Origin: Branchiostoma floridae
Lineage: Eukaryota > Chordata > Leptocardii > Amphioxiformes > Branchiostomatidae
DNA: 64,000 nucleotides
Assembly: GCF_000003815.2 (NCBI RefSeq)
Contig: NC_049990.1
Coordinates: forward strand, 10,048,541 to 10,112,540
Reading direction: 5' to 3'
A program made the position numbers and the translations under genes. The notes beneath the pieces are model-generated. The model searched no databases and was not told the DNA's origin. It saw nothing but the letters and a program-made list of their open reading frames with translations. This document shows, in pieces, positions 16,809 to 62,856 of this stretch. Numbering within the stretch: the first letter of the stretch is position 1; each line of letters opens with the position of its first letter.

Positions 16809-17081
16809 TCACTTTTTCCCGGTCCATTGAATCACATCTTGTTTGTTTCCCAAAACATATCCTCCCACGCAGAACTGTCCTACTTCTAGGTCCAGCTCTA
16901 GATCTGCGACCCAATCAGAGAGTGTGGATTTGATATTTCTATTTTTAACGATGACATCTCCGAAACTCCGGGAGGTTCTTAAGTATATCTGTATCATGAC
17001 TAGTGACTCTAGATTAGACAAATTTGGATCCACTGATTTATACATGTTTGTGACCAAATATTTTCCTTTTTGCGTTGCCAT
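16809..17081 (-). CDS. hypothetical 90-residue protein, divergent from the cytokine-like gene
   Basis: An uninterrupted frame starts ATG (17081) as MATQKGKYLVTNMYKSVD and ends VIQWTGKK-stop. It alternates hydrophobic residues in strand-like patterns (LVMIQIYLRT, DVIVKNRN, WVADLELDLEVGQF, CVGGYVLG), which suggests a small beta-barrel. A weak resemblance to single-OB-fold proteins such as TEN1 or RMI2 came to mind but is not strong enough to name it. The ATG lies about 107 bp from the TATA box of the divergent gene. It could be a complete intronless gene, a terminal exon, or chance. Confidence 0.4.
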   Translation of the reverse strand: MATQKGKYLVTNMYKSVDPNLSNLESLVMIQIYLRTSRSFGDVIVKNRNIKSTLSDWVADLELDLEVGQFCVGGYVLGNKQDVIQWTGKK

Positions 17082-17187
17082 CCCTAATTCCTGGAAGTGT
17101 TGTTTCCGGTGAATACCCACCAAACGTCTTACTTACGACATCGACAAAGTTATTTCCGATAGTTCATTGTTGCAGTTAGAATAAGTG

Positions 17188-17195
17188 TATAAAAG
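17188..17195 (+). promoter_or_regulatory. TATA box of the cytokine-like gene
   Basis: A perfect TATAAAAG lies 84 bp before the ATG at 17272. Transcription would be expected to start near 17215-17225, leaving a 5' UTR of about 50 nt. TATA promoters are usual for inducible, tightly regulated genes such as cytokines. Confidence 0.7.
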
Positions 17196-17271
17196 AGAGA
17201 AAAGTCAGGGAACATTTATTGCTCACCGACCGATTGACCTCGAATCTTTCACCGTTTCCCGAAGCTTAGAA

Positions 17272-19412
17272 ATGGAGGGTTTTGTTCACCTGTACATGAT
17301 CGTACTGATGTGCGGTACATGCACTCTACCCGACCCTGCCGCCGCTGTCCCCGTCATACGCCATTCGGATCCTGCCGCACATCTGCCAGACTCTATCGCC
17401 GCTGCACCTGCCGCACATCTGCCAGACTCTATCGCCGCTGCACCTATCGCACGTCTGCAGGACCCTGCCGCCGCTGCACCTGTCGCACGTCTGCGGGACC
17501 CTGCCGCCGCTGCACCTGTCGCACGTCTGCAGGACCCTGCCGCCGCTGCACCTGTCGCACGTCTGTCGGACCCTATCGCCGCTCCTCAAGTAGCACATTT
17601 GCCGGACCCTACCGTCGCTGCCCCTGTCACACGCCTGCCGGACCTTTCCGCCGCTGTCCCTGTCACGCGTCTGCAGGACCCGACCGCACGTCTAGTTGCA
17701 CACGTGCCGCACACTACCGTCGCTGCCCCTGTCACACGTCTGCGGGACCTGCCGTACCCTGTCGCCGCTCCTCAAGCCACACGTCTGTTGGACCCTACCG
17801 CCGCTGCACCCGTCGCACGTCTTCCGAACCCTGCCGCCGCCGTCACACGCGTTCCGGACCCCGGCTTCCAGCAGCCGACGCTGGTCCAGGCCCTGACACA
17901 GAACATCCTCGGAACCAACTGGACCTTGGCGCTGACAGCGGAGGCAATCCGCGCTATGGTAGGGGACACTGTCAGCCAGTCATATTTGATCTCATGGCCT
18001 TTTGATATAATACGTAACGAATTGTGTACGACAAGTAAGGTGAGTTGATAGTAAATGTTACCGTAAAACAGGCACTTGTCTTCGTCGCAATAAAAGTGAG
18101 AACATGGCTAATGAATGTTGGTTTTTAGTATCAATACTTTTATGTAACATAATGTTTTTGTGCCTTCAGCGTGAAGTTCACTTCGGAGACCCACATTACG
18201 ACCCTGGCTTCGAGCAGCCGGCTTGGGCAAACATCACAGTCACTGCTGATGACGTGGGGAGTGGGAGATTGGAGGTTAGTCTACGTTTGAGTTTACTATT
18301 ATTTGAAAGGAAAAATGAGTATTTGCTGTGAAAGCCTCAGAGCATACAAATCGTTGTTCTTTTCCCCCGGCCATTTCATGATACCCCTGAGGCCTTGACT
18401 GTTTCTCTACTTGTGCTGGCAGGACTCTGAGATTCTAGACCGCATCTCGTCCCAACTTTACATCTACGAGCAGGAAGTGGGCGCCGTCAAGCAGGACGAG
18501 TTGACAATGATGACCAGTGACGCTGTGGAGGGGGGTGTCGCTCCCGAGGGGGGTGTCAGGAGGGTGTATCAGCTAGTCGTGCAGGTGTACGACAAGGCTG
18601 AGTACATGCGGAGACTTCTGGCCCGAACGGTAGGTCTGTTCAAGCTAGCAGGATGTAACAACCTCCTTGGACTTTGTTGTGTGTGTTTTTCTCTCATAAT
18701 TCGCGAATCAGTGATCAGTGGCCTCGAATGACGTAGTTGCTAGGCTAGTGGAGACGAAATTCTCTACAGGTCACGGGTTCGCTTCCTGGCATTGTTGGCC
18801 ACTAAAACGTTGTGTCCTTAACACAAATTTCCTCCATCCAGGTATAAAATGGGTACCTGTATTCGGTTAGGGATGAAAATGCTGTTGGGTTTGGCTTTAC
18901 CTTCCAATACCGTGCCATAGGCAGTGGATGCAACCCACTGCCCATACGGCGTCAAAAGGGCCAATGGGATTACGCTTTTAATTCACCAACTCCAAATTGG
19001 TCTGAAATAGCTTTTTTCGTAGATTCAGCCAATTATGTCTATATTACGAAATGCATAATATTTGACAGTTCAGTTCACCCTCATATGAGATGCCATTAAC
19101 AATGTCTAACCATGCATCTCTGGCTAGCAGATTGTAGTCCTTTGACAATCGTCTTCAATTTCACCCTAATCACAACAGGCCCATCTGATGGGACACGACG
19201 ACCTTGAGAATGGCCATGCCGCTGACCTTGACCCTGCCGAGCCCACAAGTGAGTACGAGAAGCAGCTCCGCGCTCTCCGAGTGTTCATGTCGTACCAGGC
19301 GTACCTGGGCCAGCTCCGCGGCGTGTTCGCAGCGCTCCTACAGCGGGAAGTCGCAACCACCGCCCGACTGGGTCCACCAACTTCACCCGGTCCGAGGAAC
19401 GCCAATGAGTAA
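17272..19412 (+). CDS. candidate CNTF/cardiotrophin/CLCF1-like secreted helical cytokine with A/P-rich repeat
   Basis: Four exons, 17272-18039, 18170-18274, 18423-18629 and 19179-19412, are all split in phase 0 and give 437 residues. Residues 1-20 (MEGFVHLYMIVLMCGTCTLP) are a signal peptide. Residues 21-205 are about 14 diverged 12-13-residue repeats (APVARLQDPAAA). The rest reads as a four-helix bundle. Helix A (about 222-245) has AIRAMVGDTVSQSYLIS, compared with the IR...T.ESYV pattern of CNTF. Next comes a loop FGDPHYDPGFEQP, compared with the GDPF..P.F.PP and GPPF..PDF.PP loops of CT-1 and CLCF1. Helix B (292-318) has ISSQLYIYEQEV, helix C (336-360) has VYQLVVQVYDKAEYMRRLL, and helix D (384-417) has YEKQLRALRVFMSYQAYLGQL, compared with FEKKLWGLKVL in CNTF. 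All-phase-0 introns fit long-chain cytokine genes. NWT and NIT are N-glycosylation sequons. An alternative donor at 17959 would shorten exon 1 and remove part of helix A. The gene structure is strong; the family call is inferred from remembered motifs. Confidence 0.66.
17332..17860 (+). repeat. 36-bp coding minisatellite (Ala/Pro/Arg-rich)
   Basis: GC-rich tandem units of about 36 bp encode xxPVARLxDPAAA-type 12-mers inside exon 1 of the cytokine-like gene. The central units are nearly identical (CTGCAGGACCCTGCCGCCGC) and the outer ones degenerate. Because the period is a multiple of three, other frames stay open too, including a Cys/Arg-rich frame on the same strand; those are shadows. Confidence 0.85.
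18730..18930 (+). mobile_element. tRNA-derived SINE-like repeat in intron 3
   Basis: A box-A-like TAGGCTAGTGGAGA near 18741 and a box-B-like GGGTTCGCTTCC near 18774 are followed by a body with TCCAGGTATAAAATGGGTAC. The layout is SINE-like, but the ends and target duplications are not resolved. Confidence 0.55.
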
Positions 19413-21911
19413 GTACCCTGGATGCCAGACCGGACCGGGCAGCCAGCTAGTTTGTTCGGTCGTCCAAGCTTAAAGAGTCTACCCGCCGATCTCAGATTAG
19501 CACTCCGGGGAGTAAAAGCCCGAAAGGGGTTTTCGCTGCCCTTGCAAAACTCCCTTGGGCGAAACCTCCACGAAGCGCTACATTAGATTGGCGGGCAGCC
19601 TGAATTGAGCCACCGATGAAACCGACTGCCGTCCCTGTCGTCTGGTTCCAGGGTACTGTGTACTCTTGAATGTTTCAATGGTCCATTTTTGGTGACTACA
19701 GGTTTCTGCCTGTAGCGTCCCTGAAAGTCGTGTGACAAAATCTTACAACTGTGTTTTATTTTTAAAAACACGAATTTCCGAACACCTTCTCGTTGTATGT
19801 CGAGAGTAAATTAGTAAGCTATATTAGTTGAACGTTGAAGTTTATGATAAAGTAAGCTCTAAGTGCTGATAGTTTGCTACATGTTTATTGCTATTCAGGA
19901 TGCTTTAGACATAAAGCACTTTGCAGGAATGTTTCCTGTCTGTTAAAAATAGAAATTGCACAGACGTTATTCTATATTAGGTTAGTGATTTTACACATTA
20001 GTCATAAAACCAGTAACTACTCTTTGCAAGCTGATTAGGCTTAATACATATTTAATGTAATTCATGTCGAAGGTGTTAGAAGACGTGTATGTAACTACAT
20101 TGGAGGGGAAGTACATCAAATAAAAGCCAGTCGTGTCACACAACTCCTGTTTGTTTGATAGTATTTATGACTCATTGATCGATACAAGATCTATTGAGGA
20201 AATGTGTACAAGAGCGATACAACAGACACGGCAAATATGACTAGAATTGCTCTTCGTCCAATCATTCTTGTGATAAAACTTCCAAAATGCTAATAATGAA
20301 AACATGGTGTCCAGTCTATCAGCATGGGCGGCTCTCTTCGGGACTGCAGGAGCTCCCTGCCGCCGCCAACCATGGCACTTGGTGATAATTTGAAGTTGAT
20401 TAGCCCAAGGACATTAAACATAACGTTATACATAACGTCCTAGATTAGCCTTAACTTCAACCACGTAAAACTACTACCGTGTGTGATAGTGGGCACGGGC
20501 GGTGGAAAGCTCCCATGGCCACGAAGAGACCCCGCCCAATCCACGATAGACTGGATAAAAGGCTGACAGTAAAGAGATCTTCAGGCTACACTTTGTTACA
20601 CTCGGTGCGCTTGCTGATTATTAGGATTATCAAGGAGGTTATATTCAAGAATATAACCTCCTTGGGATTATTAACATCTTGGGAAATCATCAGACAGTGC
20701 ATAATCAATATAATAATAACAAACTACATTAATTCGTAGCCTCTTTATGGCAATTCCTTTCCATTGTTTTCAAGGAGTAAGTAGTCTACTTCATATACAA
20801 ATATATAAGATTCTAACACATTATATTCCTTTCGTTTCCACACAAGTTCAAACACTCAAACATCGAGGACATTGCAGTTGAGTTAAAGTGTCAAACTTCC
20901 TTTGCTCATTGATATCAAGTGTCAACTTCCTTTTCATTGATTTCTTGCAATTGCCCACATAGAAACCAATAAACAACTGACCGAACTGAAATTTCGATGT
21001 TTACACCATGTAAGGCAACAAGGTGTACAGGGTAGGTGAAGGAATGTCACTTGTTAATTAGTAACTTGGTAGCTGTTAGGGTCAGTAGATAAGATAACCC
21101 TGCAACAACCGCTCGATAGATTAAACACACATCAACGACTCAGTAAATGAAGTACGAGACAGAACATCTATATATAGTCCATAATAATAATATGTTTTAA
21201 AAGGTACATTTTCAAATTTTACATAGCTGAGACAAAAAGTGCGATCGAGCTCTTGCTTAGTCACATCCACGTTGATGGTTAAACATTGTCATGCATGCAA
21301 GACTAACTTTGGGATATGTCCTTCTAATGAAAACTAATGAATAATAGCCAATATATCACTTCCTATTTGTCATCGTATGTGTTCCTGTTTCTGCTGGAAA
21401 TATAGCCATTTCCGGTCTGATTCAAATTGTGAGAAATTCCCTCTATTCCAAATTACCCTGTTTAACAATCAAACAAATGAATTGAATTTACCAAAATTTT
21501 AGTCATCAGAAGAATTTCATATTGTCGGTCTCCCTGACAGATATGTGGAATCTAATGACCTAAAATTACAACTATCGCTATTGGCTAGTTCATTTTCATG
21601 AGCTAACTTTTTCAAACTTTGTCCATGTTCAGCAGCTCTGAATTTTTACCAAAATACGTACAGCAGCTTCCTCTTGCGACCAACATCGGCAACGCACCAG
21701 CCTCTATCGAGCTATAACTACATGTAGAGTTAAACGGTCCCATACCTTCGGCACTGATGATAATTCTGTTTCATTACAATACAAATGACATGCAAATAGG
21801 TCTCATATCAATGTTAGCATGATTTATATGAATTCATTATCTCTGCAAATCACATTTGTTGCTGTGTCCACCCAGTTACTCATGATGGCCCAATAGTTGC
21901 CTACGGAGGTG
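19413..21911. other. intergenic stretch without a supported gene
   Basis: AT-rich DNA between the cytokine-like gene and the NHL gene, which is transcribed towards it. The only distinct structure is the perfect hairpin at 20631-20664. Open frames are short and featureless. Confidence 0.55.
20631..20664. repeat. perfect hairpin, same arm as at 1981
   Basis: Arms of 15 bp (20631-20645 and 20650-20664) are perfect complements with a 4-nt loop. They begin CAAGGAGGTTATAT exactly as the hairpin at 1981-2017 does. The loop-proximal bases differ between the two, so the shared part is the outer arm. Confidence 0.85.
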
Positions 21912-23729
21912 TTAATAGTTTGTAAAGATAGTTATACTATCAAAGAGTCTATCCGTTACCAACAGCTGTCCATCGGGCCCTACCGTGGCAGTGCTAGGGA
22001 AAAAGAATCGCACCCCAGTATCCACCTGTCGGACAAACTCCCCGCGACGGGTGTACATCTCAACCCCGTTGTTTCCTCCGTTCACCACGATAAGATTTCC
22101 AGACCTGGTCAGGCAGATTCCAGTCACAGTATACCGAGAGTTATAAGTCCTGCCTTCAAATTTGAAGCGAAACCCAATCGAGGAATCAAAGACGTGGACG
22201 AAGCCACTAAGTGGGTGTACCGCAAAGATAGTCCCTTCCTTGTCCACAGTAAGGGACCCAAAACGACCCCTTTGCTCAGATTGGAACGTGTGCAATATGG
22301 TGCCGTCTTGCCGTAGAACTACGACCATGACCCGCTCATTGTACTGTCCTGCGATGATGACGTGGTTCCTCTGCCTGTCCATAGCGATGCCGCGGAACAG
22401 CAAGCCGGGTTTGATGGCCGAGAATCCGATTTCGATGCAGCCGTCTTCGGTGTACCGCACAATCCAATACGTGTTGGAGTCCGTCACCCCTACAACCCAT
22501 AGATACCCTTCATTGTCTATAGAAATATCGTATGGCTTCATTGTCACGTTTTTATTGCCAGGAACGACCGTAGGAAACTGCCGTAGGTGTACACCATTCA
22601 TATTGAAGACTTGGATACGCTTGTGACGCATGTCTGTGACGAAAATCTTGTTGCTAAGAGACACGACGATCCCGCCCGGAATTGTGAATTCACGAGTTCC
22701 TGCTCCCCCAAGCCTGAAGGTGAATCTGTAACCATGCTGTGCGGGAGGTACACTTTCGTCTCGTTCGTCAGCTGGTGGTTGAAAGCAATCTGATCCTTTA
22801 TTTGCTTCTAACCACAAGCCATCTTCTTCTATTCGTGTTGTGGGTGGCATGTTGGTAGTAGTTGTTGTTGGGAAAGCTATACTCGTTTGCACAGGAGTAG
22901 TAAACAGAATCTTGGTAGGTTTATATGACGACAAGTCCGGTAATGTTCCTGGAACTCCCATTGTTACTGATAGGTTTACAGTTGTTGGTGTCGCTTTGGG
23001 GAGAAAGTCTGTAGTTCCTTGCCTTTGCTGATGCCAGCTTTTGGCGCTTAACAGAAATGCAACTATCGTAATAAAAAGGATTGATATGACCACAGTTGTC
23101 CTGGCAACGCAACGTGAACTAACGCGACAGAGTTTGTCATATGTGGCCTTCTCTTCGTCTTTTATGTTATTCCTCCTGACGTAACTGTTCTTGTCATTTG
23201 AACACTTTGAAAGACTGATTCCTGTCGGTTCATCAACCTGTGTGGCTTGGTTGTCTTCGCCTTGCAGATCCTCATAGACATATTCTCGGCCCCATTCTGG
23301 ACTGACTGAGAAACTGGTTTCGGCAGTGGTGGCTCCCGGTCTGCGCCTTATGTCATTGACATCTCGTAATGGGAAACTGACAGGCTCTGGGACTTTGTAC
23401 ACATGTTCGGCGTTGTTGTGATGAGAAAGTGAATAGGAAATCGCATCTCCGGTGTAGGAAAAATCTGAGACTTGGAAACTGGCATCCTCTGCTTCCTCGT
23501 AAACATGCTCTGAGCGCTCACGGCGCGGTTGTGGCGGTGATTGTCTCAGTCGCCCACGGTGGGCATGCTGCGCAGGCAACACAACCACCTCTGGCTCTAT
23601 GTATACATGTTCAGAGATTTCAGAACATCGTAGCTGCCCTACTGGCTCTTCTAGTCGGTAACAGTCATCGTGGACTACTTCTTGGCCCAGATAGACGGGT
23701 GGTTCCTCATGAGAGATTTTGGTTGCCAT
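21912..23729 (-). CDS. type II membrane protein with extracellular NHL propeller and tyrosine-motif cytoplasmic domain
   Basis: Intronless frame of 605 residues, start MATKISHEEPPVY. There is no signal peptide. One membrane segment (about 211-229, TTVVISILFITIVAFLLSA) follows a 210-residue N-terminal cytoplasmic region. That region repeats an E-H/Y-V-Y motif: HVYIEP (Y43), HVYEEA (Y77), HVYKVP (Y111) and YVYEDL (Y152), plus PVYLG (Y13). YxxP and YxxL are SH2-type docking motifs, with YxxP favoured by Crk/Nck. After a Thr-rich stalk (240-300), residues 336-605 form NHL-type propeller blades, for example TIPGGIVVSLSNKIFVTDMR. NHL repeats are usually found in TRIM-NHL ubiquitin ligases, but here there is no RING or B-box. 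A signalling receptor or adhesion role is inferred. NVT and NLS are possible glycosylation sites. Confidence 0.85.
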   Translation of the reverse strand: MATKISHEEPPVYLGQEVVHDDCYRLEEPVGQLRCSEISEHVYIEPEVVVLPAQHAHRGRLRQSPPQPRRERSEHVYEEAEDASFQVSDFSYTGDAISYSLSHHNNAEHVYKVPEPVSFPLRDVNDIRRRPGATTAETSFSVSPEWGREYVYEDLQGEDNQATQVDEPTGISLSKCSNDKNSYVRRNNIKDEEKATYDKLCRVSSRCVARTTVVISILFITIVAFLLSAKSWHQQRQGTTDFLPKATPTTVNLSVTMGVPGTLPDLSSYKPTKILFTTPVQTSIAFPTTTTTNMPPTTRIEEDGLWLEANKGSDCFQPPADERDESVPPAQHGYRFTFRLGGAGTREFTIPGGIVVSLSNKIFVTDMRHKRIQVFNMNGVHLRQFPTVVPGNKNVTMKPYDISIDNEGYLWVVGVTDSNTYWIVRYTEDGCIEIGFSAIKPGLLFRGIAMDRQRNHVIIAGQYNERVMVVVLRQDGTILHTFQSEQRGRFGSLTVDKEGTIFAVHPLSGFVHVFDSSIGFRFKFEGRTYNSRYTVTGICLTRSGNLIVVNGGNNGVEMYTRRGEFVRQVDTGVRFFFPSTATVGPDGQLLVTDRLFDSITIFTNY

Positions 23730-26700
23730 CTTAGAACAACACCAAGGCCCACAGTGTGCGATACTGCAGAGGTAATCCTTGTACTGCCTGCTTGTTGCGG
23801 GAGGTACATGTGAATGTGATTATTGTCTGGAGCTTGCGGCAACGTCTAATAATAAGTTTCCGAGAAAGTAATGAATAGTAACAAGATAGTTGACCTTTGG
23901 GCAGATGTCAATTACTGCTTTTGATATTGTATAATATTGCTGTTGTGTTCTAAAATGATTTCGATAAATTTGAATTGACAATTGTCATAGATGCTAACAC
24001 ATAGTTACCATAGTTGCTGGCTTGATTCTGTGATCTGTTTGTCTTTGTTTTAAGAAAATCGTAAACGAAAAGCTGATGGAAAAGAAAGGGGTCTTATGTA
24101 AAAAGAAATTTGTATTTTAAGTACCATATTCCAATTATGTACCACACAGGAATAATGGCATGTTCGTGCTGATTATGTAATAAGATAATTATTATGCAAA
24201 TTAGGTTATGATTATTATAATCTATTCTAATTGATGGCCTTCACTTCCCAAGTTACATAACATGATTTTGTATATAGGGCTAGGGAAGTTCATCCTTTGG
24301 TAGAATTACTTATATATTTACATAATCTAGGCATTGAGATAATTAGCTTTAAGAAACTAACACATCGCGATCATTTACCGAATTTTACCGGAATTATATC
24401 ATCTTTGCATAAATGATGCAAATCATGTCTTATTTGCATATTTGGCATATGTTTATGCGCACATACTCACACGGCATGCGTACATACTCACACACGTGCA
24501 CACACACACAAAAAAAATACCTATTTTTTTTCTTAGAAGTAAACATAACCTTAACTTTGGCTAGAGTAGTTCTAGTGGTAATTACGAGAGTGAAGCAAGA
24601 ACCTGTCAATTATACAACTAAATAGAGGTCTAGAGCAGTTTTGAAGGCGTTCCAGGGTTATTATGCTGCAATATCCCAGAATCCCTACAGACAGTTAGAA
24701 AGATTCGAGCTTCTACATACATAACGTTAACGCAGAGTGACATGAACCACCTACTTGCCTTGTCATAATTGCTAGGCACAGTAGACAAACAGCTAATTTG
24801 TTTGTGGAGGTCCGTTAAAAATTTGTCTGCAGTTTGTAAGAGCAACAACCTCCATGGAGGTCATCTAAAAAGTTTCGCGCATACAGTCCGTATTGGCATT
24901 TTATTAAGGGAAGTTCATAATTGTGGCATTACGTGAAGGTGAACGTCGTTAAATATGAATTGGTCAGAAAAGGCTAATAAAAGCCTGTAAACTGTAATAC
25001 TTTGGACAACTCCTTTTATTTGAGTGGACTCGGAAGATGATCAAGCGATGCCATTTATGTAAATAAGGACCTAATTTGCATAATCAACGAGAACCACTCA
25101 TAGTACATCAATCGTAAAGATTCAAATCATTTTGTGAAGTAATGAGGTCCTCAAAATCTGTGGTACTATTAGTCTATCTTTTCATTCATATGCAAAAACA
25201 CGTATTCACCAATAAACGAAAAAAAAGCTGAAGGCTTCACCGAAGGCCAGTAATTTCCTTGTAGGAAATTGTGTCCGACAATAGACAATTTGGCGTACCA
25301 CGTGATCAATCATATAACGTCTTGCTGGAAAAGTCTAGAGGCCCGAGTCCTCATTCTGCTATCCGCAGCTGTGAAGAGAGGCGCGGCGGTACAGCAACCC
25401 AATTAGGCTTCTTCATAAGGTAAGCTAATTCTTAAAGATCAATCAACAACATTCGGAGACCTTTTGTGGGTTGCAGGGAGACAGATAGCATATGTGAGTA
25501 ATCACCTGTACAACCTTAATCAAGAAATAAAAGACAATAAGAGAAAATCGAATACACAGGGAGATGTGCTGGTCAAGAAAAAAACTGGCGCTGCGAACGA
25601 ATGAAAATTCAGGATGTACTAGGAAAATATCTTTCCACTCTGAGTTTCTACTAACGTTACAAGACAACAGTTGCAGTGGATACCTTAAGCTTGTGTCACA
25701 GTCGTGTTTGAATAGACATCACGAGTGATGACAGCATTTTAGTATCATATCATAGACACCTACCAGTCATACCGTGTGCATGGCACTTTGTACAAAATTG
25801 TTCTCTTCCATGGGGAGTTATTTAGTAAATAAGAAAAAGAATAAATGTATCTACATCTGTTATTTCGCACTTTTGAAACCACACTCTAAGCCACACTTTT
25901 TTACATGTGTACATTTTGTGAATTATGTATTTGTGTCAGGGTCTCATAATAAGTGGCGATATGGTACGGACATTGTTACACAGGTAGTGTCCCTTTACGT
26001 AAATGGCCAGAGGCTCAAATTGAGTCGCTAGACAATTACAGCCGTTCTTTTCATAACTGCGCCATCACAGGGAGTGTCAGACCACAGTGGTGGGCGCCAG
26101 ACTTCACCAGGCTTCGGTAAAACTTCTGTTTTAAAAGGTAATAGTAAGTGCTTATATTTTGTAAGGAATGTCTATACACTCTTAATCCAAGAGTCAATGT
26201 CTATGTGATGTTAAAATATATCATCTGTAGCTCGCTTAGAAAACGCGTTAAATGCGTTTAGGTTGTGACTGAAAAATATAATGGCTAAGCTTTTAGTCAG
26301 TTTTAGTATGAATCAACGAATTGAATTCCTCAAGTATCAATATAAAATGTCAATCATGAAGATGCCTTACTAAATCAACGTATGGGCATGTAGTCATACC
26401 TTACAACGCAATAAAATTCTACAACAAAACTTTGATTTAGAAAATGGATGCAAATTTTCCAGATTGAACATTTCTCTAGTTACTGCGCAGACAGTTCTCT
26501 CTTGATCTAATGTTAGTACATGCCGCTTTAAATTTGTTGTGTTTTCCCCGGTAGGGAATACTGTCGTTTTTGCTGACGTGTTCTTTTCTTTTCCTCTTTC
26601 TTCTCCTTATTTCATTCTGTCGGTTGTCAATCAGAGCTTTATAGGTTGGATATTAGCTGGTTAGCTGTTCGGCAAAGGTGAGAAATTGTGTAGTCAATCA

Positions 26701-27566
26701 GAGCTTAAGTTAGATATTAGCTGTTCAGCAAATTTGTTTTTTTTTTTACTCGGACAAAATACCATAGGGTGATTCTAATGTCATAGAATAATTGTGTTAA
26801 TGACTTGTACCAAAAACCCAGAAGATGTATTTTCTTAGTCGCATACAATACTATAGGGCAAGTCTAATGTTATAGTATTTTTTTTTTCTTTATTGAAATA
26901 CGTGTAAATATACAAATAAACGGACGAGGACAAAGTGAAGGCGGACTCAAGTTACATTCAACTTATATTAACGCCGCCAATGTTATAGTATTGTGCGCGA
27001 GTACCCTGACAAAAGGCAACGCCAACGGGGAAACATTGTGCATTTTCGCGAAAATGTTGCCTTTCTAGTTAGTAATTGTTTTTCTAAATATTGCAAAATA
27101 CTAGTAGTGTACTTTCTTTGTGACGTACTTTCTTTGTACATAAAGCATTTCTTTTGCATCGTCTAACAGCACGAGTACACCGACGAGGAAAAAAGTACAT
27201 TGTGGTGCAGAAGTGGCCCCAGAGCGAAATCACTCTCCAGTCAACTAGAGCCAGAACAGAAAAAAACACCGCATGTCTAGTAGGACATCTTAGCTCACTG
27301 GTAGTTTCATAGATTGATTGGAATAAGAAGTATTTGTGTGTGTGTTTTTTTTTCTCACCATAACACCCATTTCAGAATTGATTTGCGCAAGTGAAGTAGG
27401 GAAATAGCACACCGAATTACCATTCTTATAATTGAGCATACATTGATTATTTCATTAGAAAAATTAGTGCTACAAACAGGTACTACATAATTAGATTATT
27501 TGCCTACACCCAACAATTGTTACCCTAATCCACAATATCGTTTTCTGGCCAGTCAATCATTCCAAC
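23730..27566. other. intergenic stretch with a retro-insertion
   Basis: AT-rich DNA between two divergent single-exon receptor genes. I see no exon with domain content. The retro-inserted fragment at 26866-26992 is described separately. Confidence 0.55.
26866..26992 (-). mobile_element. 5'-truncated retro-insertion with 14-bp target duplication
   Basis: A 99-bp insert (26880-26978) is flanked by exact AATGTTATAGTATT copies (26866-26879 and 26979-26992). Read on the minus strand, the insert ends with AATAAAG followed by a poly(A) tract. A polyadenylated tail, truncation and target-site duplication are the marks of LINE-type target-primed insertion. Confidence 0.88.
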
Positions 27567-29123
27567 ATGGTTTACCAAAACAGTGAAATACGACTTTTCA
27601 GATCGCCTCGATTGTTCGTAGGATTGCTTTTAATCCTTCTCCCTGTAAACATAGCAAAGGAATCGAAACAACTGCAACTCCAAAAATGTGAAGAGGCGAC
27701 AGGTTTTAATGATTTATTAACGATATCGTGTGACGGGAAAGGTTTGACGAGTGTACCTGAAGAATTGACGCCAAAATCTGTCTTTGAACTGGCGCTTCCC
27801 AACAACAAGCTAACTACCTTCCCATGTAAGGCCCTGCCCTATCTGCAAACGTTGAATCTAAGAAACAACAAAATCGCCTATTTCCCGTGGAAATGTCTGA
27901 AGAACATGGCACGTTTGGTGCATCTAGACCTGTCACATAACAAGATTTTCTGTGTCAACCTCTTCCCTGTAAAGTCACACTTACCGCGTTTGCGAAGGAT
28001 CGACATCTCTCACAACAACCTGACGACTTTGACTTTATGTGACATTGGAATTGGCCAGTCAAATACGGTATCATACGACGTTATACTAGGGGGAAACCCT
28101 TTTCACTGTGATTGTAAGATAGCTTGGATCGTGGATGTTGCGATTCATGTTGAAATGTGTCGATACGACAGATCCAAATCTTGTGTAGAGTTTTTTGACC
28201 GACTCTCTTTGGCAGTAGCAATGTACAATGATAAGTCTTTGTTCACCTGCAGTTCACCTCCCCAAATACAGGGGGCAGAGTTGAATCAATTAGACGTCTC
28301 TAAGTGCCTACATTTTGTAGACGAGACAGGACGAAATAGATCATATATACACCGGGATAACTGTTCTCCAGATCGTTCTTGCCCCAATGAAAGTACAGAT
28401 CTTTTCGCGCCGAACACCTTCGCTTCGCCCATATTGCCACCGAAAACCAGTAGTTCTGGCACATTTTCAACAACTAACGTTAGTGCACCACACAATGTGA
28501 TACAGGCTGAAATACATAATGAATCCCAAAGTGTGGCAGATACCCATAAAGGTATCATGAGCCCCAACCAGGCGCCCACTTCAACAGCAAAGTTTGAAGT
28601 GACCGAGGAGGTTGAAAAGGCGCATTTTGAACAAACTACAGGAAAAGCGAAAAGTGAGCCCTCTGTCGTGTCACAATTTATTGTAAAGACTCCACAGCCC
28701 AGTATTACAGCATCAGGTTGGACACTCACCATTGTTGGAATGATTGTTGGCGTGGCCGTTTTGGTCGGTGTTGCGCTCTTATTAGCTGTGTGCTTGGGTA
28801 TTCTTAGGAAGCGAGCCGGCAAAAATGTTTCCGGACAAGCTATGGCTCTCAATGGTCTAGCCAGTACCAGTCAAAACACACAGGCTAATAATTATAATGG
28901 CCAGGAGACATCTTGCAATGGCCTGAAATCAGACCCCGATTCCGACAACATGTATGAAGTTATTCCCGAAGACGCTGCATATGCTGCATCGTCGTATGTT
29001 TTCGACGTACCTCAGTACGATATGGTGGAGATTGAAAATAGTGGCGAAGTAGAAAAAGATGGTATCGGTAGTCACGATGAAATCGAGGACAGTGAAAATA
29101 TCTATGAAAATGGTAATCACTGA
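27567..29123 (+). CDS. single-pass leucine-rich-repeat receptor with tyrosine-rich tail
   Basis: Intronless frame of 518 residues. An N-terminal hydrophobic signal (RLFVGLLLILLPVNIA) is followed by an LRRNT-like cap (CEEATGFNDLLTISCDGKGL). Four or five LRRs follow (ELALPNNKLTTF, TLNLRNNKIAYF, HLDLSHNKIF, RIDISHNNLTTL) and then a C-terminal cap with NPFHCDCKIAW. A Ser/Thr-rich stalk (about 250-383) leads to a membrane segment (386-412) with RKR stop-transfer. The 105-residue cytoplasmic tail has MYEVIP (Y463), SYVFDV (Y477), QYDMVE (Y484) and IYENG (Y513). YxN is a Grb2-type SH2 docking motif; the spacing does not fit a canonical ITAM. A cell-surface recognition or adhesion role is inferred. 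I cannot assign it to a named vertebrate LRR gene. Confidence 0.88.
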   Translation: MVYQNSEIRLFRSPRLFVGLLLILLPVNIAKESKQLQLQKCEEATGFNDLLTISCDGKGLTSVPEELTPKSVFELALPNNKLTTFPCKALPYLQTLNLRNNKIAYFPWKCLKNMARLVHLDLSHNKIFCVNLFPVKSHLPRLRRIDISHNNLTTLTLCDIGIGQSNTVSYDVILGGNPFHCDCKIAWIVDVAIHVEMCRYDRSKSCVEFFDRLSLAVAMYNDKSLFTCSSPPQIQGAELNQLDVSKCLHFVDETGRNRSYIHRDNCSPDRSCPNESTDLFAPNTFASPILPPKTSSSGTFSTTNVSAPHNVIQAEIHNESQSVADTHKGIMSPNQAPTSTAKFEVTEEVEKAHFEQTTGKAKSEPSVVSQFIVKTPQPSITASGWTLTIVGMIVGVAVLVGVALLLAVCLGILRKRAGKNVSGQAMALNGLASTSQNTQANNYNGQETSCNGLKSDPDSDNMYEVIPEDAAYAASSYVFDVPQYDMVEIENSGEVEKDGIGSHDEIEDSENIYENGNH

Positions 29124-38139: not shown

Positions 38140-39755
38140 GGGTTTGTTTGTTTGTTTGTTTGTTTATTAGGAATCTCCATTAGTTACATTGAACTATTCT
38201 TCCTGGAGTCCTTTACACACAATGAATAAAATACATAACAACAAATTATACAGATAATGTTGATCAGACAACTAGCATAAATCAATCATTAACATTCTTA
38301 ACTTATCATATTATGCAATACATTAAATTACTCATAACGTCAATCAATCAATTCATCATTATCCTCATTCAATTAACATAAACAAAAACATTATTATCAT
38401 ATCATATCATACATGTACATAATATTATCATATATTAGATATTGTGGAGGTCAGAGGTCATGAAATATACAGATGGGACATAGTCAAGTTTACCACCATG
38501 AGCTGATAGGTGAGTTTTTATGTCTTTGAGTTTTTGTCCAGGACCAGATTTTTACTTTGAATGCACGTGGATTTGAGGATGTAATGTGAATTGGTAGAGT
38601 GTTGTATGTTTTGATAGCTCTGTATAAGAAGGTTCGAGTAATGGCATTAGTTCTGGGTTTGGGTAGCAAGAATGCTCCTTTCTGTGCTAGTCTGGTGTTG
38701 TGAGAATGTGCGGTGTTAACTGTTTTTAAACGACTGAAAATGCATTTTGGCTGTTTTTCCTTTACAACTTTATGGAATATGTTGATAGTGCCTGTGAAAA
38801 GTCTTTCTTTTACTGAGGGCCAGTTTAACTGATTATGTAGTACGTCTAGGTTTGCGTCAAAACATGCACCTGTTGCCAGCCTAGCTGCTCTATTCTGGAT
38901 AACTTGCAGTTTGTCTAGGTGTGTCTGAGGCGATGAGGACGTGAGTACTAAGCCGTAATCTAGGTGAGATAGGACCAAGGTCTGTATCACAGTTTTCAAC
39001 AGGTTGGTAGTGAAGTATTCCTTATATTTCCTAATTGAAGCAAGAGCTCCTGCCATCTTCATCTTTGTTTTGTTTACTTGTAGAGCCCATGAGAGCTGCT
39101 GATCCACAGTGACACCTAGTAAGTCCGCCTGTTCCACCTGTGTAATGATTTTGCCTTCGATGGAAAGTTGTAGCTTCGGCTTCCTTTTTAGCCTATGTGG
39201 TGAACCCAAGACGATTGATTTTGTTTTGCCAATGTTGAGGATTAACTTGTTTGTCCTCACCCAATTCCATATCTTAGACAAGTCTGTCTGCAGCTTATTT
39301 TGTAATGCTGTAATGTCAGAAGCTGATGTGGATGGGGTGGAATCATCGGCATACATCACAACCACACTTTGGGTAGTTACCGTTGGCAGATCGTTTGTGA
39401 AAATACAGAAGAGAAGGGGACCGAGGCAGCTGCCTTGGGGTACGCCACATTTTGTTTCAATGAATGATGAGTAGCTTCCATTCACAAACACGGCCTGTTT
39501 CCTGTTTTCTAGGTAGCTTCTTGTCCAGTTTATGGCAGATTGTGTAAAGCCATAACTTTGTAATTTGGCCAGACAGATCTCATGATTGATAACATCAAAA
39601 GCAGCACTAAAATCTAACAAAACTGCTCCTACTAAGTTACCCTTGTCTATTTCTTCCAGCCAGTAGTCTGACATTTGTGTGAGCGCGCTAGAAGTGGAGT
39701 GGAAGCGCTTATACGCATGTTGATTACCGGAGAAAATATCATTTGAGTTGTTTGC
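38140..39755 (-). mobile_element. 5'-truncated non-LTR retrotransposon
   Basis: The minus strand carries the 3' half of an ORF2-type reverse transcriptase (described separately). A ~350-bp untranslated tail follows and ends in a short (AAAC)n tract, which is GTTT repeats on the plus strand at 38145-38166. The RT frame breaks near 39755, where the element is probably truncated. A microsatellite-like 3' tail and 5' truncation are typical of jockey/CR1-clade elements. Confidence 0.85.
38490..39755 (-). pseudogene. reverse transcriptase fragment of LINE ORF2
   Basis: Open frame of more than 394 codons. It starts in RT motif 2 (HAYKRFHSTSSALTQMSDYW), continues through the catalytic block VLLDFSAAFDVINH and GVPQGSCLGPLLF, and includes the YADD box (VVMYADDS). 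The thumb region and a C-terminal region with HSHNTRLA follow. The upstream endonuclease domain and RT motifs 0-1 are missing, so it cannot be an autonomous element. The frame itself has no internal stop, which suggests a fairly recent insertion. Confidence 0.93.
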
Positions 39756-57605: not shown

Positions 57606-58659
57606 GTAAGTGTTATGTATATATATTCGATTTATTTGGAAAACATTTCATCTTTATGAATTGCTAATGCATGGTTAAATGTTAAAGCAATTATTTGATG
57701 ATATGCTGCACCAATCTAAGGAATATCATACTTCATTTATTAAATTCAATGAAATATCAGGGGCAATTACGGACCACAAACAATGACTCATGACAGAGCT
57801 TTTAAGAAGTATACAAATTCTTAGCAGATACTGTAAATCACTTTATCTTCACGGTACCAAATTTTCACGGTCTGAGAAAATTGAACTTGTTCTCGGAACT
57901 ATATGTTCACTGTCGAGGCAAGTGCACATGAAAAATGTCTGTGAATTATTTTTTATCGGTAATGATAAGTTCACGTTACAGTCGTCACCGTGAAAACAGT
58001 GAACATAACATTACAGTGAAAAAAATCAGGAATTACAGTATTGAACAGGTCCGTTCATCACAACGGCCACTATTCTGGCCTCAGAGCATTTTGCCGCTAA
58101 GGCGGCAAAATGCAAAAATTTGAATGATCATTGTCGATGCTGGTATGTGACCTTGTTACTGCAGTAGAACTTCTGGTTTTGTACCCTTTGACCTGTGTTA
58201 TGTTATTTTTGACCTGTGTTATGTTATTGATATGTTATCCTTTGTCCTGTACTTTTCTTGTTGTTTTGGTGGCAGATTGTTTCTGATGTCAGTGAGAGGT
58301 GACATAGGTTTAGGCCCACTAGCAGCTTTTTCTGGGACTACAGAGGCCTTTTTTATAAAACATTTTGGAGGATAACTAAACAAAGGAACGACAAAGGGAT
58401 TATCTAATTGCCGCACTGCGGTCCCTCCTATTGTGTGCAATTGCATTGGGATTTGGGAGTCACACTCCCACCAACAGGGTTTTCACCTTTCCGGTCACTA
58501 AACAATATTGCACCACACTGACGGTAAACTTGTCGGACAACTCTGTCTGAAACAGCCATTTTCGGGCGGAGTGTTTTTGCAATATGGGATAATCATTATA
58601 TGGTTACTGAGTGCAGTACAACTTGTATTTGACTTTAATTTTTACGTTTGTTGGGGTAT

Positions 58660-59973
58660 ATGCCTCTCGTCATGAAAACCTCCTTGCGCTTGCATCGCAT
58701 TCTTCGGCACCACAGGTCATCGGGGGTCAACGTTTTCTTGTTACTAGTTTTGCTGATAGTTGTTTTTATCTACACTCTTCATATCAAACGTAGGGAACCT
58801 GTCAGCACAGCACTAAATGACTTCCGCTTTCTCTGGGCCGAGACAGGAACATGCCCTGCGTGTTTTGGACACACCTGTGGACTTATACAGCAGGGGAACT
58901 TCCGAAGGGTGAACCCTAACAGAGAGCAGAAGAGATGTGTGGTGTCCGTTGGTAGTATAGATGGAGATATGGTGATTGCTAAAGCTCTGAGTGAGGAGGA
59001 TGTATGGCGTAGATATGACAGTTTCATTTGTCGGACATCCCCACGCCCCGAGGCCTGCAATGCCTCGTCTTTCATACTGGAGTCCATGTATGTGACGGAC
59101 GCTGCTTTGAAATTGTCCTGGCTTTGGGAGGCTAGGAAGATTACCCATACGGAAAGGGCGGTTTCACCACTTTGTGTGTCAGCAAGGTTTCTGCAAGAAG
59201 TCAAACAGTTGTATGTTGAAAACGAAGGTACAGAACTGGAAAGAGTCGAACGCGCGTTTATGGCAACATCACTCCTCCTGGACCAAGAGGCGGTGATACT
59301 GCGATACTTCACCACAAAATCTGCAATCGTTTGGCCCTTTCCGAAGTACTACGGGGCTTGTGGGAGAGTGGTTGTGCTGCAACACGCTGGAAGGACACTC
59401 GATGCTTTTCTGGACTCCCCTTGGGAACACCGAGCAAACATTGCAGTACAGTTGTTACAAATAGTAGACACCCTTCGCGAAAAGGACCCCGACTGGATTT
59501 TGTTCTTTCTAGACGTATCTATGGAAGATTTCGCAGTCGACAGAAGCGGCAGGGTGCGACTGATCGACTTTGAAGACGTCATGGTGATTGATAGACAAAC
59601 GGTTGCCGATGAAGGGATAGAGGAGGGGTGCAACGAGCAGTGTTATATGAACTTCCAACAGGAACTAATGAGCGACTACTATCATTGTAAAGATATACTT
59701 AGGTACACCCAAATGATGTATGCCAACATTTGTGTTCGGATTTTATCCAACCGTCGAGAAAACGAAGAGAAAGCCGAGTCGGAAGAAAGAAGTGAAGAGA
59801 AAGGGGGACAAAGTGGGGAAGAAAAGCCTAATAAGCCCCAAAAAGGCCTTCTGTATGATCCTCCAGATGACATGAGAGAGTCGCTAGAGAGCGCACTTGG
59901 ACATTGTGTCCATGAGACACAGCCAGGGGGTCGACTGAAAGCAGTATTGACGCTAAAGGAAATCTTGAAGTGA
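58660..59973 (+). CDS. DIPK2: DIPK2 (divergent protein kinase domain 2), secretory-pathway kinase-like protein
   Basis: Intronless frame of 437 residues from ATG 58660; a second ATG at 58672 is possible. A type II signal anchor (about 23-41, VNVFLLLVLLIVVFIYTLHI) precedes ETGTCPACFG, the Cys motif seen in vertebrate DIPK2A/B. WPFPKYYGACGRVVVLQHAG, FFLDVSMEDFAVDRSGRVRL and IDFEDVMVID match the family's kinase-like core, with DFE at the position of DFG. YDPPDDM and a final Cys (GHCVHETQPGG) match the C-terminus. DIPK2A (C3orf58/HASF) and DIPK2B are ER/Golgi or secreted. An acidic-basic insert (NRRENEEKAESEERSEEKGG) sits in a loop before YDPPDD. Lack of introns may mean retroposition or intron loss. 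It cannot be split into 2A versus 2B. Confidence 0.92.
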   Translation: MPLVMKTSLRLHRILRHHRSSGVNVFLLLVLLIVVFIYTLHIKRREPVSTALNDFRFLWAETGTCPACFGHTCGLIQQGNFRRVNPNREQKRCVVSVGSIDGDMVIAKALSEEDVWRRYDSFICRTSPRPEACNASSFILESMYVTDAALKLSWLWEARKITHTERAVSPLCVSARFLQEVKQLYVENEGTELERVERAFMATSLLLDQEAVILRYFTTKSAIVWPFPKYYGACGRVVVLQHAGRTLDAFLDSPWEHRANIAVQLLQIVDTLREKDPDWILFFLDVSMEDFAVDRSGRVRLIDFEDVMVIDRQTVADEGIEEGCNEQCYMNFQQELMSDYYHCKDILRYTQMMYANICVRILSNRRENEEKAESEERSEEKGGQSGEEKPNKPQKGLLYDPPDDMRESLESALGHCVHETQPGGRLKAVLTLKEILK

Positions 59974-60659: not shown

Positions 60660-60840
60660 TTTTTTTGTGTGTGTCTGTCTGTCTGTATGTGTGCCCGGAT
60701 ATTTGTGGTCAGCATAACTTTAGAACTTCTGGATGGATTGTAATGATACTTGGTATGTGGGTAGGTGTTTGGAAAGGTCAATGTCGATTCTGGGCCCCCT
60801 TGTGTGTGACCTTGGTACTGCAGCAAAACTTCGAGTTTTT
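60660..60840 (+). repeat. dispersed repeat leading into the satellite
   Basis: A GTCAGCATAACTTTAGAACT block, CTGGATGGAT and CCTTGGTACTGCAGCAAAAC precede the 97-bp array directly. Related fragments occur at about 4150-4330 and 58137-58172. The satellite may be an internal expansion of this element. Confidence 0.65.
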
Positions 60841-62370
60841 TTATCTTTGGACCCCGAAAACTTTCCGCAGGTCCGCGCCTTTGCAAAAATGCCATTCTGG
60901 GCCCAAAACGGGCCATCTCGGCCGGTCTGGGGAAATTTCATTTTTGGACCCCGAAAACTTTCCGCAGGTCCGCGCCTTTGCAAAAATGCCATTCTGGGCC
61001 CAAAACGGGCCATCTCGGCCGGTCTGGGGAAATTTCATTTTTGGACCCCGAAAACTTTCCGCAGGTCCGCGCCTTTGCAAAAATGCCATTCTGGGCCCAA
61101 AACGGGCCGTCTCGGCCGGTCTGGGGAAATTTCATTTTTGGACCCCGAAAACTTTCCGCAGGTCCGCGCCTTTGCAAAAATGCCATTTTGGGCCCAAAAC
61201 GGGCCATCTCGGCCGGTCTGGGGAAATTTCATTTTTGGACCCCGAAAACTTTCCGCAGGTCCGCGCCTTTGCAAAAATGCCATTTTGGGCCCAAAACGGG
61301 CCATCTCGGCCGGTCTGGGGAAATTTCATTTTTGGACCCCGAAAACTTTCCGCAGGTCCGCGCCTTTGCAAAAATGCCATTTTGGGCCCAAAACGGGCCA
61401 TCTCGGCCGGTCTGGGGAAATTTCATTTTTGGACCCCGAAAACTTTCCGCAGGTCCGCGCCTTTGCAAAAATGCCATTTTGGGCCCAAAACGGGCCATCT
61501 CGGCCGGTCTGGGGAAATTTCATTTTTGGACCCCGAAAACTTTCCGCAGGTCCGCGCCTTTGCAAAAATGCCATTTTGGGCCCAAAACGGGCCATCTCGG
61601 CCGGTCTGGGGAAATTTCATTTTTGGACCCCGAAAACTTTCCGCAGGTCCGCCGCCTTTGCAAAAATGCCATTTTGGGCCCAAAACGGGCCATCTCGGCC
61701 GGTCTGGGGAAATTTCATTTTTGGACCCCGAAAACTTTCCGCAGGTCCGCGCCTTTGCAAAAATGCCATTTTGGGCCCAAAACGGGCCATCTCGGCCGGT
61801 CTGGGGAAATTTCATTTTTGGACCCCGAAAACTTTCCGCAGGTCCGCGCCTTTGCAAAAATGCCATTTTGGGCCCAAAACGGGCCATCTCGGCCGGTCTG
61901 GGGAAATTTCATTTTTGGACCCCGAAAACTTTCCGCAGGTCCGCGCCTTTGCAAAAATGCCATTTTGGGCCCAAAACGGGCCATCTCGGCCGGTCTGGGG
62001 AAATTTCATTTTTGGACCCCGAAAACTTTCCGCAGGTCCGCGCCTTTGCAAAAATGCCATTTTGGGCCCAAAACGGGCCATCTCGGCCGGTCTGGGGAAA
62101 TTTCATTTTTGGACCCCGAAAACTTTCCGCAGGTCCGCGCCTTTGCAAAAATGCCATTTTGGGCCCAAAACGGGCCATCTCGGCCGGTCTGGGGAAATTT
62201 CATTTTTGGACCCCGAAAACTTTCCGCAGGTCCGCGCCTTTGCAAAAATGCCATTTTGGGCCCAAAACGGGCCATCTCGGCCGGTCTGGGGAAATTTCAT
62301 TTTTGGACCCCGAAAACTTTCCGCAGGTCCGCGCCTTTGCAAAAATGCCATTTTGGGCCCAAAACGGGCC
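60841..62370. repeat. 97-bp satellite array, about 15.8 copies
   Basis: The unit contains GGACCCCGAAAACTTTCCGC, AGGTCCGCGCCTTTGCAAAA, ATGCCATTTTGGGCCCAAAA and CGGGCCATCTCGGCCGGTCT. Copies are almost identical. The first three read CCATTCTGGG where later ones read CCATTTTGGG; the third has CCGTCTCGG; one copy near 61650 has a single C insertion (98 bp). No stop occurs in any of three forward frames, and since 97 is not a multiple of 3 each frame cycles through all three. The resulting 470-630-codon frames are artefacts. Confidence 0.97.
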
Positions 62371-62856
62371 ATTTTTTACAGGCCGCTACACGGTAAAAAT
62401 CAGTTTTCCTGGGATAATGACTAATATGGCAATGAAGGTCAAGACTTCTTCTGCATACTGAGTAAAAAGGAAAAAAGTTATCCGATACGTTTTCCGCGAG
62501 CTCCGATGGCGCTAAAACACCCAAAACGCACATAGAACGCACGATCTGGGTAATCAGGCGACGAAACGCTTTACCGCTATCGCGCGCACTAATACCAGGA
62601 AGTGTTCGCCGCACGATCAAATCTCCGACACCATAAAACGCTACGAACAACAAGCATTTAGAGGAGTATAAAAGATTATAGGTTGCTAAAGCGATAGCCG
62701 AAAAATCTAGAGCGAAAACTATGGAGACAACCTCTGATTTGCGTCTTATTCCGAACCGGAACCCTAATATCCATAGCAATGTTTTTTGTTAGACAACGGA
62801 TATAGGTTAAAAGTGAACTGGTATTGAATTGAAAACTTATAACTTTACTCCGACAG
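62371..62856. other. non-coding flank between satellite and EF-hand exon
   Basis: Unique sequence after the array, containing the intron that ends with the acceptor at 62855-62856. No exon is recognisable on either strand. Confidence 0.45.

Follow-up and report, generated by a model that had tools for sequence, protein, structure and literature searches.

A Branchiostoma floridae gene with a tandem repeat in its first exon probably encodes a class I helical cytokine from a paralog family linked to vertebrate CLCF1

The window analysed here, a stretch of 64,000 nucleotides of Branchiostoma floridae DNA (NC_049990.1, positions 10,048,541 to 10,112,540 of the forward strand; C12:10048541-10112540 in the searched genome of 513 Mb and 431 contigs), carries at 17272-19412 (+) a gene that an initial annotation had proposed as a member of the CNTF/cardiotrophin/CLCF1 cytokine family. 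This is a real gene. Its product is probably a secreted cytokine of class I (four-helix), and by sequence the vertebrate proteins closest to its family, which numbers at least eight paralogs, are CLCF1, CNTF and CT-1. Sequence analysis establishes that the gene exists with the exon structure given below and belongs to a paralog family, and that this family has a statistical link to CLCF1. The kinship originally proposed is partly supported: the window protein appears to be a class I helical cytokine on the CLCF1 side, and not a proven member of the CNTF/CT-1/CLCF1 family.

At least seven paralogs of the window gene (C12) were found in the genome, namely C9, C4a, C4b, C4c, C4d, C15a and C17, giving a family of at least eight genes. 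Two of them were found in part (C4d and C17, each represented by exons 3-4 only), and for C15a the first exon is an uncertain model. The closest paralog, C9, on the contig of that name, has the same four-exon layout and is 32% identical to the window domain (85.5 bits, pairwise expect value (E) 6e-25, 0/2000 shuffles as high); exons 3 and 4 also exceeded every one of 2000 shuffles when compared with C9 individually, and exon 1 as initially modelled was equalled by 18/2000. A profile of six members, built without the window gene and C9, recovered both, C9 with 6e-15 and the window domain with 1.2e-4 (with database size set to 20000, and slightly favourable, as its columns came from alignment A3, which held both targets). 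Divergence from C4a-c is greatest for the window gene (pairwise Z -0.2 to 5.8): with C4c it gave no pairwise signal, the two being linked via C9 and the profile. In the window gene, in C9 and in C4a, exons consist of whole codons (phase 0); for exon 2 of C4a and for C4b, C4c, C4d, C15a and C17 only phase-0 exons were sought, so that these models are consistent with that phase and no independent support for it. In vertebrate class I cytokine genes, phase-0 introns lie between helix and loop units. A hydrophobic N-terminus, judged by hydropathy only, was present in all five members examined; for C4d and C17 no exon 1 was found. C15b, almost identical to C15a and in tandem with it, was excluded from all alignments; the pair lies on C15 at 10.3537-10.3565 Mb (L040), apparently as a recent duplication, and exon 1 of C15b was not found.

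It is through these paralogs, and not through a match of its own, that the window protein is tied to class I cytokines by sequence. A seven-paralog profile without the window gene had human CLCF1 as its sole PDB match at E<=10 (E 2.3e-4; 177,635 PDB sequences), and CLCF1 was also the best PDB match of the eight-member profile that includes the window row (E 0.0018). With C4a, C4b and C4c omitted, CLCF1 kept the first place among 15 human cytokines (17.9 bits, versus 8.0 for the best of 6000 decoys), and on the full profile CLCF1, CNTF and IL-27A were the top three of the 15. Pairwise Z against CLCF1 was 3.1 to 9.2 in 8/8 members. A profile-profile comparison placed the CLCF1+CNTF+CT-1 group on top (hhalign, 96.9-97.0%), but mostly via CLCF1: singly, CLCF1 reached 94.8-95.3%, CNTF 24-45% and CT-1 3-13%. 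CLCF1 stood above 12 other human cytokines, the next being IL-27A (72 or 37%), and the other groups gave 1-6% (GH+PRL), 1-26% (LIF+OSM) and 45-55% (IL-6+G-CSF). As a control, the 96.9% of the CLCF1+CNTF+CT-1 group compares with 0.1% for a reversed query and no more than 8.0% in 200 shuffles.

Among curated Pfam families, plethodontid receptivity factor (PRF, PF06875) was matched by two of the eight members (best E 0.0073) and was the sole Pfam match of C4a (E 0.0091, 15.9 bits versus a cut-off of 22); as human controls on the same family, CT-1 scored 15.6 bits and CLCF1 34.1 bits, and human CLCF1 matches both PRF and CNTF (PF01110). An exon-by-exon search of the genome with PF06875 gave no match, and the control genomes were silent too, hence this is no proof of absence; tblastn of C9 exons 3-4 against a plasmid collection gave no match, as expected. 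Matches of single paralogs were set aside as uninformative: for C9, coiled coils of JIP proteins in the PDB and Pfam IL11 at 0.041 beside PilJ and FlgN; for C4a, a phage Soc protein at 0.74.

The gene starts with an ATG at 17272 and has four exons with GT/AG ends, all joins in phase 0. The four phase-0 exons initially described were retained, with the end of exon 1 moved from 18039 to 17958 on the C9 alignment, and the revised protein has 410 residues. The features of the gene are as follows.

17188..17193 (+): TATA box (TATAAA), about 84 bp 5' of the start codon, from a motif scan of 17001-17300.
17272..17958 (+): exon 1, revised, with signal peptide, repeat region and helix A; donor ATG/GTAGGG at 17959, with an ungapped C9 match up to the intron.
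17272..17331 (+): signal-peptide region, residues 1-20, with a hydrophobic core; aligned by eye with the C9 N-terminus.
17332..17856 (+): repeats of about 12 residues (AAAPVARLxDP type), residues 21-195, from a 36-bp tandem array; absent from C9, C4a, C4b and C4c.
17881..17958 (+): helix A candidate, residues 204-229, with sequon N216; C9 match and a low-confidence AlphaFold2 helix.
17959..18039 (+): 81 bp initially counted as exon, most likely intron and possibly an alternative 3' end of exon 1; donor AAG/GTGAGT at 18040.
18170..18274 (+): exon 2, 35 codons, phase 0, A-B loop with sequon N250; FGDPHY aligned in register with FGDPDY of C15a.
18423..18629 (+): exon 3, in phase 0 and with 69 codons, encoding helix B and the greater part of helix C; C9 paralog match (0/2000 shuffles) and alignment A3.
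19179..19412 (+): exon 4 with the stop codon, end of helix C, C-D loop and helix D; C9 paralog match (0/2000 shuffles) and alignment A3.
20119..20124 (+): AATAAA, possible polyadenylation signal, from a motif scan.

The TATA box and two N-glycosylation sequons noted in the initial annotation are in place, the latter at N216 and N250 in revised numbering. So is the hydrophobic N-terminus read as a signal peptide (from hydropathy only); by eye it resembles that of C9 (LYMIVLMCG...AAAVPV versus VYMLAVFCG...AAAVPV), and this likeness backs the start codon and the signal region. The repeat region, underlain by a 36-bp tandem array of 12.9 copies (17371-17840), makes up 175 of the 410 residues, and after it, still in exon 1, starts a non-repetitive domain that runs on through exons 2-4; the open frame across the repeat is no evidence by itself, because other frames there are open too. 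As to the four amphipathic helices described earlier, the helix C candidate beat shuffles in amphipathicity (15/2000 as high), and the helix A, B and D candidates did not (488, 314 and 957 of 2000 as high).

The end of exon 1 is most likely 17958 and not 18039, judging from the alignment with C9. With the donor at 17958 the last 26 exon 1 residues align ungapped with C9 at a BLOSUM62 sum of +27, versus -17 with the donor used initially, and the whole-domain score against C9 is 243 versus 217. Against five paralogs together the sums were -24 (17958) and -143 (18039), and against the four members besides C9 the fit was weaker (-8 to -17) and still above that of 18039 (-25 to -36). The five-paralog test is weak: its donor-17958 sum was equalled by 309/5000 shuffles and slightly exceeded by two repeat stretches (-17 and -22), and therefore the correction rests on C9. 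Restoring the 27 extra residues lowered the mean predicted local distance difference test score (pLDDT) of the AlphaFold2 model from 50.9 to 44.0, a weak hint in the same direction. Under donor 17958 these 27 residues, VGDTVSQSYLISWPFDIIRNELCTTSK, are intronic, and some of the initially listed motifs fall with them, among these the "SY" motif that had been placed at the end of helix A. It is possible that donor 18039 is an alternative in use.

Several motifs were read by eye. In C4a-c, WR(N/A)(L/M/F)xDEER(M/L) spans the exon 2/3 join, and VWRSLNDKLRL of CLCF1 and AWRRLSDPERL of IL-27A resemble it. Exon 2 of the window gene begins REVHFGDPHY, the C15a counterpart being KISRFGDPDY, and helix D of C17, SEYDRSLRDHIIIRDFVDFLRRVQRDFMKL, aligns ungapped with SDFLQKMDDFWLLKELQTWLWRSAKDFNRL of CLCF1. 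Predicted from its single sequence with AlphaFold2, the window domain had a mean pLDDT of 50.9 and a predicted template modelling score of 0.44, with long helices at domain residues 9-39, 70-91 with 94-105, 113-141 and 163-201, plus three short ones, all at low confidence. Foldseek of the revised, low-confidence window model gave no match at E<=0.001, and matches such as CorA were discarded on account of that low confidence. The model thus speaks neither for nor against a four-helix bundle.

The search for gp130-like receptors suggested in the initial annotation gave, with PF09240, two sub-threshold matches without receptor features, and class I receptor-like exons were found with PF09067 (EpoR_lig-bind). 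This family matched six exons in the genome, the best on contig C7 with 28.7 bits (cut-off 27.3), and a second C7 match reaches the cut-off together with its neighbours; two of 14 control genomes also matched, none above the cut-off. Frames near the matches hold a receptor-domain pattern of the C-x-C-W-W type, with a YWSEWD motif on C7 (by eye). Several class I cytokine receptor-like exons lie on C7 at 20.65-20.70 Mb (L055, L056) and 19.44 Mb (L057), with repeated ligand-binding-type C-x-C-W modules, a WSEW motif and unusual repeated modules such as CPDLEVVEDTSSVACHWG. By these domain patterns, class I receptor-like genes are present in the genome. A class I receptor of amphioxus, GHRl, is described in a review (PMC9010856).

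A ligand of this kind outside vertebrates, which the initial annotation had rated as notable, is no isolated find. According to a 2022 review, the amphioxus growth hormone-like hormone GHl, credited to Li and co-workers, is a type-I helical cytokine with a length of 208 residues, and the amphioxus genome has several other divergent genes akin to type-I helical cytokines (PMC9010856); another paper calls GHl a single GH-like gene (PMC5376476). Two real-time polymerase chain reaction primers for GHl of Branchiostoma japonicum (KJ735508; Table 1 of PMC5376476) matched C4c in 19/25 and 18/23 bases, compared with 12 to 16 in the other members. The primer sites lie in exons 3 and 4 of C4c, giving a 162-bp product, and encode LFLDEVL, identical in C4c, and TQPTDIT (IPPTDVT in C4c). 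Because its primers match C4c best of the eight members, GHl is probably the C4c-type member of the CLCF1-like family. The C4c locus is on C4 near 33.81 Mb (L038 2852-5457).

The CLCF1-side reading is carried by the family profile and by hhalign, which both pick CLCF1. Several observations weigh against it: i) the window protein alone matched no cytokine family in sequence and Pfam searches, so that the protein as first annotated could not by itself have shown the kinship; ii) a profile of the window protein and C9 found no cytokine in the PDB, and one unrelated match at 0.21; iii) all amphioxus PRF matches fall under the curated cut-off, and CNTF and LIF_OSM, the Pfam families initially put forward for searching, were listed for none of the eight members (human CT-1 is also under the cut-off for PRF and LIF_OSM, and the curated-profile test is therefore insensitive); iv) FxxK at the start of helix D is a motif of LIFR-binding cytokines, and at this position in A3 six of the eight members have an aromatic residue and none the lysine (one has arginine); v) exon 2 alone was not significant against C9 (256/2000 shuffles as high); vi) single pairs with cytokines other than CLCF1 also score.

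It is unlikely, though not negligibly so, that the family is a generic class I cytokine radiation confined to cephalochordates and no closer to one vertebrate class I ligand than to another, with CLCF1 on top through slow evolution and kept ancestral residues. The 45-55% of the IL-6+G-CSF group, the third place of GH1 among the 15 cytokines in one leave-out profile and an exon pattern like that of IL-6, IL-11 and G-CSF genes would fit such a radiation, and the divergence from vertebrate cytokines is too great for a tree of so few sequences. However, the top three of the 15 on the full profile are CLCF1, CNTF and IL-27A, and LIF, GH1, EPO and leptin singly reached 0.1-2.3% by hhalign. Membership of the growth hormone family, under which the relative C4c (probable GHl) was named, is improbable; the GH+PRL group scored as low as given above, and Hormone_1 (GH/PRL) was not among the 14 Pfam families listed for the eight members at E<=10, in a listing from which HMMER filters drop most matches above about 0.1.

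Two further alternatives concern the window copy itself. We consider it very improbable that the product is a secreted repeat or coiled-coil protein that is no ligand, its cytokine match being chance between long helices: the PDB matches do include coiled coils (those of JIP and a designed one) and the repeat fills 175 of 410 residues, but CLCF1 was the sole PDB match once the window row was omitted, shuffled profiles stayed at or below 8.0 in probability, and the CLCF1 alignment covers the A-B loop plus helices B-D. Little credence goes to a decaying paralog that no longer yields a ligand. The divergence from C4a-c, the large repeat and the shuffle results for exon 2 and for exon 1 as initially modelled would suit decay, whereas four open exons with GT/AG ends, a TATA box, a polyadenylation signal and the strong C9 matches of exons 3 and 4 argue for an intact gene.

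As a CLCF1-side cytokine, the window protein would lose its signal peptide, and its C-terminal ~200 residues would form the ligand, with four helices, long A-B and C-D loops and introns between helix and loop units. This ligand may bind class I cytokine receptor chains and signal through JAK-STAT. The repeat of 175 residues that precedes helix A would be a lineage-specific expansion of a pro-region, probably serving as a spacer or as a part later cut off. Tentatively, and with somewhat less than even confidence, we propose that the amphioxus family, GHl included, is co-orthologous to vertebrate CLCF1/CNTF/CT-1 and perhaps IL-27 p28, that IL-6-type cytokines predate vertebrates, that GHl is a CLCF1-type ligand and that the window gene is the member with a tandem-repeat pro-region.

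The existence of divergent helical-cytokine genes in amphioxus was already known (PMC9010856); the surprise lies in a kinship toward CLCF1 and away from growth hormone. We found no published link between these amphioxus genes and CLCF1 in searches of an open-access library, and a 2026 survey reports IL-6 family ligands as vertebrate-only (PMC13203501). If the affinity to CLCF1 is true, ligands of this group go back at least to the divergence of amphioxus from vertebrates, and what has been described in amphioxus as an ancestral growth hormone calls for reassessment. With the paralogs and their exon models on one side and the C7 receptor-like exons on the other, the question becomes one of testable ligand-receptor pairs.

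Elsewhere in the window, five other features were observed, the four open reading frames (ORFs) being characterised by eye.

21915-23819 (-): single-frame ORF of 635 residues in which EHVYE motifs recur, plus a membrane segment and a propeller of NHL-like type.
27495-29120 (+): ORF of 542 residues with leucine-rich repeats.
38493-39755 (-): reverse-transcriptase-like ORF of a long interspersed nuclear element.
58639-59970 (+): ORF of 444 residues resembling kinases of the secretory pathway (FAM69/DIPK or PKDCC type).
60839-62372: 97-bp tandem array, 15.8 copies with 99% matches, open in several frames.

Compared with known systems, the family resembles IL27A in that the latter ranked third of 15 on the full profile and second by hhalign, and differs in that the profile score of IL27A is below that of the best decoy (10.6 versus 10.7 bits). 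With human CLCF1 (PDB 8d7h, 8d7r), the profile aligns over the stretch between the A-B loop and the C-terminal end of helix D, ungapped in helix D, and by eye CLCF1 shares the WRx(L/M/F)xD motif ahead of helix B with three of the six members with modelled exon 2 (C4a-c). Unlike CLCF1, all eight amphioxus members lack the lysine of FxxK, and the window gene has a repeat region of 175 residues; three introns split the helix and loop units of the amphioxus genes. With respect to GHl, the window gene is a distant paralog, and whereas GHl has been filed as growth hormone-like, the family described here is nearer to CLCF1.
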